NCBI RefSeq assembly: GCF_025628885.1
Contig: NZ_JAOTIF010000009.1
Span: forward strand, 62,001-126,000
Origin: Paraflavisolibacter caeni
GTDB lineage: Bacteria; Bacteroidota; Bacteroidia; Chitinophagales; Chitinophagaceae
Direction of reading: 5' to 3'
DNA length: 64,000 nt
Numbering within the stretch: the stretch's first letter is position 1; every line of letters starts with the position of its first letter. Of this stretch, positions 7,870-8,960 are shown piece after piece. The translations under genes and the position numbers were made by a program. The notes under the pieces are model-generated. The model searched no databases and had not been told where the DNA came from. It worked only from the letters and a program-made list of their open reading frames with translations.

Positions 7870-7986
7870 TTATCCTTGTCTTTGTTTGAAGCGAGGGTTC
7901 TTTTTGTTAATAACATACAATACACCCTTGCGACGCACAATTTTGCAATCGGCACTACGCTTCTTAATTGATGCACGAACTTTCAT
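7870..7986 (-). CDS. rpmJ: 50S ribosomal protein L36
   Basis: 38 codons on the minus strand, starting [20 protein letters not shown] and ending NPRFKQRQG. Canonical zinc-binding L36 has Cys11, Cys14, Cys27 and His33. Only Cys14 is kept here (Ser11, Asn27, Phe33), so this is the zinc-independent C- form. Position between infA and rpsM is the conserved one. The S4 in the same operon is also of the zinc-free type. Confidence 0.97.
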
Positions 7987-8041
7987 GACTAATTTATTAC
8001 AGTTTTCTAGTTATAAATTTTACTATTACGACTTCTCCACT

Positions 8042-8092
8042 CTACTTGTAACGGAAAATAATCCTTCCCCTACTCAAATCATAAGGGCTCAT
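8042..8092 (-). pseudogene. Second copy of the infA 3' end (16 codons plus stop)
   Basis: Read on the minus strand this encodes [16 protein letters not shown] then TAG, identical in all 16 residues to the C-terminus of the infA product just upstream. The DNA differs at 13 of 51 positions and every change is synonymous, including TAA to TAG. No stop codon interrupts the reading frame between the infA stop (8147-8149) and this fragment, which lies 105 nt downstream in the same frame. Homology starts abruptly at the Met. The best reading is the leftover end of a second, once functional infA gene; a translated micro-peptide is the alternative. Confidence 0.85.
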
Positions 8093-8146
8093 TTGATGAC
8101 GAATCAATGATTTTTTATTTGCGTCATCGAATTCGCCCAACCCTTA

Positions 8147-8365
8147 TTACTTGTACCTAAATATTATTCTACCTCTACTTAGATCGTATGGGCTCATTTC
8201 CACACCTACTTTGTCGCCTGGCAAAATACGTATGTAGTGCATCCTCATTTTGCCGGAAATAGTAGCCAGGATTTCGTGGCCATTTTCCAACTTCACCCTG
8301 AACATAGCGTTTGACAAGGCTTCTAATATTGTTCCGTCCTGTTTAATTAATGGTTGCTTCGACAT
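8147..8365 (-). CDS. infA: Translation initiation factor IF-1
   Basis: 72 residues, the standard length for this OB-fold protein, which occupies the 30S A site during initiation. Typical features are the N-terminal [17 protein letters not shown], the [23 protein letters not shown] core in two parts, and the C-terminal [10 protein letters not shown]. It is the first gene of the operon here; secY and map, usually just upstream in Bacteroidota, are absent. A -7 element (TATCTTTG) lies 17 nt upstream of the start, giving a very short leader. The last 16 codons are repeated downstream at 8042-8092. Confidence 0.97.
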
Positions 8366-8555: not shown

Positions 8556-8960
8556 TTACTGAGTCAAGGGCTTCTCGAGAGGCACCTTGGTCATTTGGAG
8601 GTAATGATTTTGCAATTCGTGCACGTAGAGCGGGTGCTCAAAATGACGCCTGTCTTCCCGGTACCAAACATCCAGCTTGGTATAATTTCCGGGATCGTGC
8701 ACCAGGACACGGAAAGGGCCTCTCATGTATTTGACACCATCTTCGGTGTTCTCACGTTCGAAGCCCAGCATTAGGAGTTCCTTTTCTGTAAGGGGCACAG
8801 GTATGATCTCTTCGGGCGTATACCAGAATTCCTGGACGCCATTAAAGACACAGGCCATGTTATCTTCACGGCTGAGTTCTTCAACGATACCGTCTCTTTC
8901 TATTCCCTCATCTATCACTCTTACGACATCTCCAACTTTAAGGTCAGTGATCTTTACCAT
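8556..8960 (-). CDS. Conserved hypothetical protein, KOW-like N-terminus
   Basis: 134 residues, not assigned to a named function. Residues 5-45 (LKVGDVVRVIDEGIERDGIV) resemble a small SH3/KOW-like beta-barrel opening. The middle has LTEKELLMLGFERE, and the end VHELQNHYLQMTK resembles the VHELQN-Y motif of a widespread Bacteroidota family of small uncharacterised proteins, also found in phages and mobile elements. There is no signal peptide or membrane segment. It lies between hmgA and the infA operon, on the same strand. Family resemblance is from memory and the role is unknown. Confidence 0.8.
   Translation of the reverse strand: MVKITDLKVGDVVRVIDEGIERDGIVEELSREDNMACVFNGVQEFWYTPEEIIPVPLTEKELLMLGFERENTEDGVKYMRGPFRVLVHDPGNYTKLDVWYREDRRHFEHPLYVHELQNHYLQMTKVPLEKPLTQ

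Follow-up and report, generated by a model that had tools for sequence, protein, structure and literature searches.

A candidate recombination scar at the 3' end of infA in the ribosomal-protein operon of Paraflavisolibacter caeni

Homology-facilitated illegitimate recombination, as set out in the accessible portion of PMC3240628, has one homologous end and one illegitimate end, where the microhomology mostly spans 3-10 bp; in the 14 clones sequenced there, single crossovers had given rise to partial gene duplications of 109-950 bp. Replacement within a ribosomal operon is described, in the corresponding portion of PMC1570145, for rpl36 in haptophyte and cryptophyte plastids, and the accessible text of PMC12884075 reports that islands in many cases reconstitute the genes that they have entered. 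Judged from titles and the beginnings of abstracts, and for PMC6123621 from passages of the text, the open-access entries on infA in connection with attB or integrative elements, on infA gene replacement, and on duplicated infA in Bacteroidetes looked irrelevant.

When a short piece of an essential and highly conserved gene is transferred, the event as a rule escapes notice, since the protein is unchanged and no scar is left behind. At the locus described in this work, the old gene end seems to have been preserved beside the new one by a joint that was misplaced, such that the replaced part, the kind of source, the joint and a rough age become readable. We consider it likely, at a probability of about 70%, that a recent recombination event made infA chimeric and left its native end behind as a scar, a reading drawn from sequence comparison. 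It also serves as a warning that even genes of the ribosomal operon can be mosaics.

The repeated infA end and its divergence

In the window, i.e., the whole 64,000-nt stretch of DNA that was analysed, infA is followed on the minus strand by rpmJ, rpsM and rpsK (Table 1). Between infA and rpmJ lies a 51-nt copy of the gene's own end, which encodes 16 residues identical to the C-terminus of IF-1 plus a stop, in the same frame as infA and at a stop-to-stop distance of 105 nt; the spacer separating it from the infA stop, counted from a second TAA, measures 54 nt (8146-8093). The infA-rpmJ gap of 160 nt is the longest among 302 unique gaps, whose median is 39.5 nt and whose next longest member is 138 nt. 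The copy was recovered by a protein search of its own genome at E 5e-4, and its score was reached by none of 300 shuffles of the gap. As the initial annotation had reported, the working tail and the copy differ at 13 of 51 nucleotides, all of the differences being silent, with TAA as the stop of the former and TAG as that of the latter.

Table 1. Features of the infA-rpmJ junction, in window positions
Feature	Position	Strand	Basis or reading
Gene of 134 aa immediately before infA at the genus loci inspected	8556-8960	minus	without Pfam match
infA (IF-1, 72 aa)	8365..8147	minus	PF01176, E 3.5e-27; probably chimeric, codons 1-56 native and 3' end foreign
Working infA 3' end (codons 57-72 + stop)	8197..8147	minus	putatively foreign
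infA stop TAA	8149-8147	minus	
Second in-frame TAA, adjoining the infA stop	8146-8144	minus	
Putative donor infA-rpmJ intergenic region, 49 nt, opening with the second TAA	8146..8098	minus	gap alignments
ATCAAA, putative leftover of donor rpmJ start ATGAAA and site of the illegitimate joint	8097..8092	minus	register of four alignments
Relic, putative native last 16 infA codons + stop	8092..8042	minus	repeat; G011 nearest within genus, 44/51 nt
Inferred native infA-rpmJ intergenic region (55 nt)	8041..7987	minus	
rpmJ (L36), next operon gene	7986..7870	minus	PF00444, E 5.6e-22; G011 nearest within genus, 0.33

When 13 random substitutions were placed in the 51-nt tail, none of 200,000 simulations came out wholly silent, and hence both tails must have diverged while coding for IF-1. 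A simple tandem duplication, which would have left near-identical copies or a copy decaying with amino-acid changes, does not fit the 13 of 51 differences, which are silent throughout, and the same pattern supports the earlier view that the fragment is the terminal part of an infA with an evolution of its own. At the level of codons, 11 of 17 differ between the working tail and the relic, as compared with an average of 8.3 of 17 for pairs of species of the genus. The relic offers 39.3 nonsynonymous sites, none of which has changed, and the neutral divergence since truncation thus amounts to at most about 0.08 per site. Since no change is seen at these roughly 39 sites, the truncation would be recent, and recency can by itself explain the intactness of the relic peptide.

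This bears on the idea of a fragment that is translated and kept by selection, whether it is reached through readthrough or yields a 16-aa peptide started at its own ATG. Its 16 codons do lack any amino-acid change and an ATG is present. Against this, the infA stop is directly followed by a second in-frame TAA, contrary to the initial annotation, which had the frame right but saw no intervening stop, and an open frame leading to the copy can start no earlier than a TTG at 8140, the other start being the ATG at 8092. Readthrough, already regarded there as the less likely possibility, becomes less likely still on account of the two consecutive stops. Further, recency alone can account for the intact peptide, and no intact counterpart was found among the family and order genomes and the infA-rpmJ gaps searched. 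A translated, selected fragment is accordingly the most improbable of the readings weighed here.

As a separate observation on this region, the stretch 7986-8160 (minus strand) folds better than its shuffles (z -3.18), with arms that partly span the inferred joint. A search for RNA elements gave a single Rfam match at E 0.07, far under the gathering score.

Provenance of the two gene ends and of the spacer

Silent codon choice was compared with that of 14 species of the genus at rpsM, rpmJ, rpsK, infA codons 1-56 and both tails. By rpsM (0.28) and by rpmJ the nearest relative within the genus is the genome G011, while rpsK is nearest to G017 (0.38), with G011 following at 0.43. The relic, too, is nearest to G011 within the genus, at a silent distance of 0.38, as against 0.88 for the working tail. 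Over the 14 species the distances of the relic track those of rpsM and rpmJ combined (rho 0.57, p 0.03). The agreement is weak for codons 1-56 (rho 0.44, p 0.12) and absent for the working tail (rho -0.22). A codon-swap test of closeness to G011, carried through all 2048 ways, returned an exact one-sided p of 0.004, with G011 having been picked as the nearest relative by rpsM and rpmJ; two such tests against the whole genus gave p of about 0.10 and 0.11. On the basis of G011 being nearest for relic, rpsM and rpmJ alike, together with the codon-swap test, the relic looks like the displaced native end of infA, and the working tail would be the foreign one. The mean distance of the working tail to the genus, 0.741, is the largest of 15 (the others range from 0.41 to 0.67), and that of codons 1-56, 0.509, is ordinary (others 0.43-0.60).

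DNA searches over 394 family genomes add to this comparison. The working tail with its spacer gave 35 matches outside its own genome at E<=1e-6, with none in the eight genus genomes and none extending past the first 5 nt of the spacer; the best match to the working tail stands at 87%, and no donor was found among the 394. The relic gave 70 matches, including four of the eight genus genomes. For infA codons 1-56 the genus supplies four of the five best matches, and for the 134-aa gene upstream, over 57 loci, the 13 best matches all come from the genus; both of these segments look native.

Taken by themselves, the 51-nt tails are suggestive and their statistics are weak, and several observations keep them from being decisive. 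The codon likelihood score contrasting family with genus use does not single out the working tail, standing at 9.2 there and at 9.1 in G004, a genome without a relic. The mean distance of the relic to the genus is 0.606, the tail being farther in only one of the 14 species, and the relic is slightly nearer to the rest of the family; the mean distance of the genome's own rpmJ likewise exceeds that of 13 of the 14 species. The top DNA matches of the relic lie outside the genus, in two genomes that agree with it at 90% over 50 nt, and protein identity of S13 and S11 fails to set the genus apart from other genera. Additionally, the working tail and the relic have in common AGT and AAG, codons that are rare in the genus.

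The key evidence comes from the spacer. Among the 302 unique infA-rpmJ gaps its best partners score 22 (L261, genome G302), 19 (L327, G176), 16 (L249, G112) and 15 (L318, G100), where 100 shuffles of the spacer reach 19 at most and 17 next, and the reversed spacer reaches 13. The third and fourth partners hence fall within the shuffle range and the top match is a moderate one, at 22 versus 19. All four partners align to the spacer in a single register, which runs through TCGTCATGAAA, the start of their rpmJ, and the bases standing here at that position are TCGTCATCAAA, followed by TGAGC. An rpmJ start of ATGAAA is found in 230 of the 302 unique gaps, and TTCGTC before rpmJ in four of them. This likeness to the gaps of other genera, the register at the rpmJ start and the rarity of TTCGTC suggest that the spacer represents a donor's 49-nt infA-rpmJ intergenic region together with the start of its rpmJ, in which one base has changed. 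IF-1 ends differently in three of the four partner genomes, which are hence not the actual donor. The 55-nt stretch at 8041-7987 showed no similarity above shuffles to other infA-rpmJ gaps.

Another reading is that a whole second infA was imported or duplicated beside the native gene, that both copies functioned for long, and that deletion afterwards reduced one of them to its final 17 codons. The wholly silent differences are those expected between two working genes, and a likelihood search within infA for the left breakpoint, where the import would begin, gave no usable position, though the crossover may lie in codons 46-56, which are somewhat unusual (rank 14 of 15). However, the gene upstream has a native look, as have codons 1-56, none of the genus genomes sampled carries a pair of infA genes at this position, and the spacer resembles intergenic DNA running into rpmJ, unlike the truncated 5' part of an infA. 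A whole second gene is thus unlikely as the source. The earlier proposal of a replacement scar retains its core, in that the relic looks like a displaced native end, and loses the import of a complete gene: since codons 1-56 and the gene upstream look native, probably only the 3' end of infA and the adjoining intergenic DNA were imported.

The same flanking evidence weighs on the prospect of an artefact, in which the assembly or a mixture of strains fused two species. The assembly is indeed a draft of 89 contigs with a contamination estimate of 2.33. Nevertheless, the flanking genes on both sides fit the genus and the joint is internal to a long contig, of which the window covers positions 62001-126000, and such a fusion appears very improbable.

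Occurrence in other genomes

The genus sample comprised 18 genomes, 15 of them with an infA match, and in none of the 14 other than the genome under study was an extra tail present after infA. A second full infA in relatives, for which the initial annotation had suggested looking, occurs among the 18 only in G011, a draft of 720 contigs and 78% completeness. There, the contig with the second gene (L017, contig 350; cf. L012) repeats the whole block of the 134-aa gene, infA, rpmJ, rpsM and rpsK; a repeat of the entire block in an incomplete draft is best read as contamination. In the family sample, infA was matched in 277 of 294 genomes and nine, including the genome itself, gave two matches, with no second tail in the other eight. 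Seven of these were set aside as low-identity matches (25-37%). The eighth, G274 (L069, L070), carries a divergent infA at 68% identity, with another contig matching only the first 35 residues, at 97%. In the order sample, which overlaps that of the family, the 25-residue infA end was matched in 377 of 396 genomes, and two matches were obtained only in the genome itself and in G523, whose second match is partial (72%, residues 3-20 of 25) and lies on another contig. Of the genomes with a match, 277 in the family and 377 in the order, this one alone accordingly shows an intact second tail, the partial match of G523 aside.

These distributions also speak to a further explanation, namely that an integrative element targeting the 3' end of infA restored it with a synonymous tail and was afterwards lost but for 105 bp. 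The layout fits an attL/attR pair with a 10-bp identical core, AAATGAGCCC, and this origin deserves consideration because, according to the accessible text of PMC12884075, islands often rebuild the gene that they enter. Yet only 54 nt and no integrase lie between the copies, with rpmJ and rpsM coming next, and infA ends occupied in this way were not found in the 276 other family and 376 other order genomes with a match, apart from the partial case of G523. No match to the locus was found in plasmid or phage records, and the spacer as a mobile repeat gave nothing better than E 0.014 among the matches listed for the 18 genus genomes, its own included. Together with the resemblance of the spacer to infA-rpmJ intergenic DNA, and with an open-access literature on infA and attB that looked irrelevant by title, this leaves an element scar with little likelihood. 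As a side observation, the IMG/VR contigs L158, L159 and L160 (328, 139 and 109 kb) encode IF-1-like proteins of 50-59% identity, that of L158 matching PF01176.

Relics of the same kind were sought in the 266 unique infA-rpmJ gaps of at least 15 nt. A relic score above the maximum of 1064 shuffles (15.0) was obtained only for the window (37.5) and for G103 (18.0), a genome of another genus (L056/L185/L236); L062 and L096, both scoring 14.0, were dropped as lying within chance. In G103 the 27 nt GGATAAAAAATATTCAGGTACCAATAA end 39 nt past the infA stop. A profile search gave them 1.7 bits, under the best shuffled scores, and their protein-level score was reached by nine of 300 shuffles, and the case therefore turns on direct DNA comparison. 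The 27 nt agree at 21 positions with the tails of the relatives G231, G484 and G486 and at 19 with the tail of G103 itself; the closest agreement of all, at 23 of 27, is with a tail that occurs in other genera, and 216 tails have a median of 18. Among 11 relatives, G484 and G231 are nearest to G103 by infA codons 1-56 and G468 by rpsM, while its own working tail is nearest to those of G486 and G537.

These comparisons are suggestive of an older, decayed relic of an infA tail in G103. That replacement of the infA tail recurs in the family, with G103 showing a working tail unlike those of its nearest relatives by codons 1-56 and a decayed relic that resembles theirs, is a tentative proposition that we regard as doubtful. 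Were it true, foreign DNA from ribosomal operons would have come in repeatedly at the infA-rpmJ junction, with readable scars that record both direction and age.

The proposed event and its relation to known systems

In the recombination favored here, the incoming piece would have consisted of the infA end of a relative, the intergenic region behind it and the first bases of rpmJ. It might have entered by transformation or conjugation and been incorporated through a single crossover or through homology-facilitated illegitimate recombination, a process marked by RecA dependence and uptake of linear DNA. On the left side, donor DNA would have been joined to the native infA by a crossover inside the coding sequence. 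On the right side, the donor rpmJ start ATGAAA would have been joined illegitimately to the native infA at codon 56/57 (GAA ATG AGC), over a microhomology of 3-4 bases that would read AAA or GAAA, if the sequence of native codon 56 is as assumed and one base has changed since. The resulting order would be the native upstream gene and the 5' part of infA, then the donor infA end, intergenic region and rpmJ start, and finally the native infA end, intergenic region and rpmJ. Its outcome would be a single working, chimeric infA in an unbroken operon, with the relic 105 nt downstream and presumably untranslated.

Such an event is unusual in its place and its legibility but known in kind. As proposed, it would resemble the homology-facilitated illegitimate recombination presented in the accessible portion of PMC3240628 in its one-sided homology, its microhomology at the opposite end and the partial duplication of the target gene. 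The events of that portion were obtained in the laboratory with selectable inserts, whereas the present one would be natural, is read from sequence, concerns an essential operon and would have brought in some 105 bp or more. With the plastid rpl36 case, as given in the corresponding part of PMC1570145, it would share replacement within a ribosomal operon, flanking genes without sign of change and a joint with little identity. In the plastids, however, a whole gene, the counterpart of rpmJ, came from a distant paralog, while here the end of a gene would have come from a member of the family and the relic is still visible. The gene-restoring integrative elements of PMC12884075, within the accessible text, offer a comparable outcome, namely a gene made hybrid by its new 3' end, downstream of which the displaced end persists. 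Unlike those elements, the present locus shows this arrangement without an integrase, without an element and without an intact second infA tail in the other genomes sampled.
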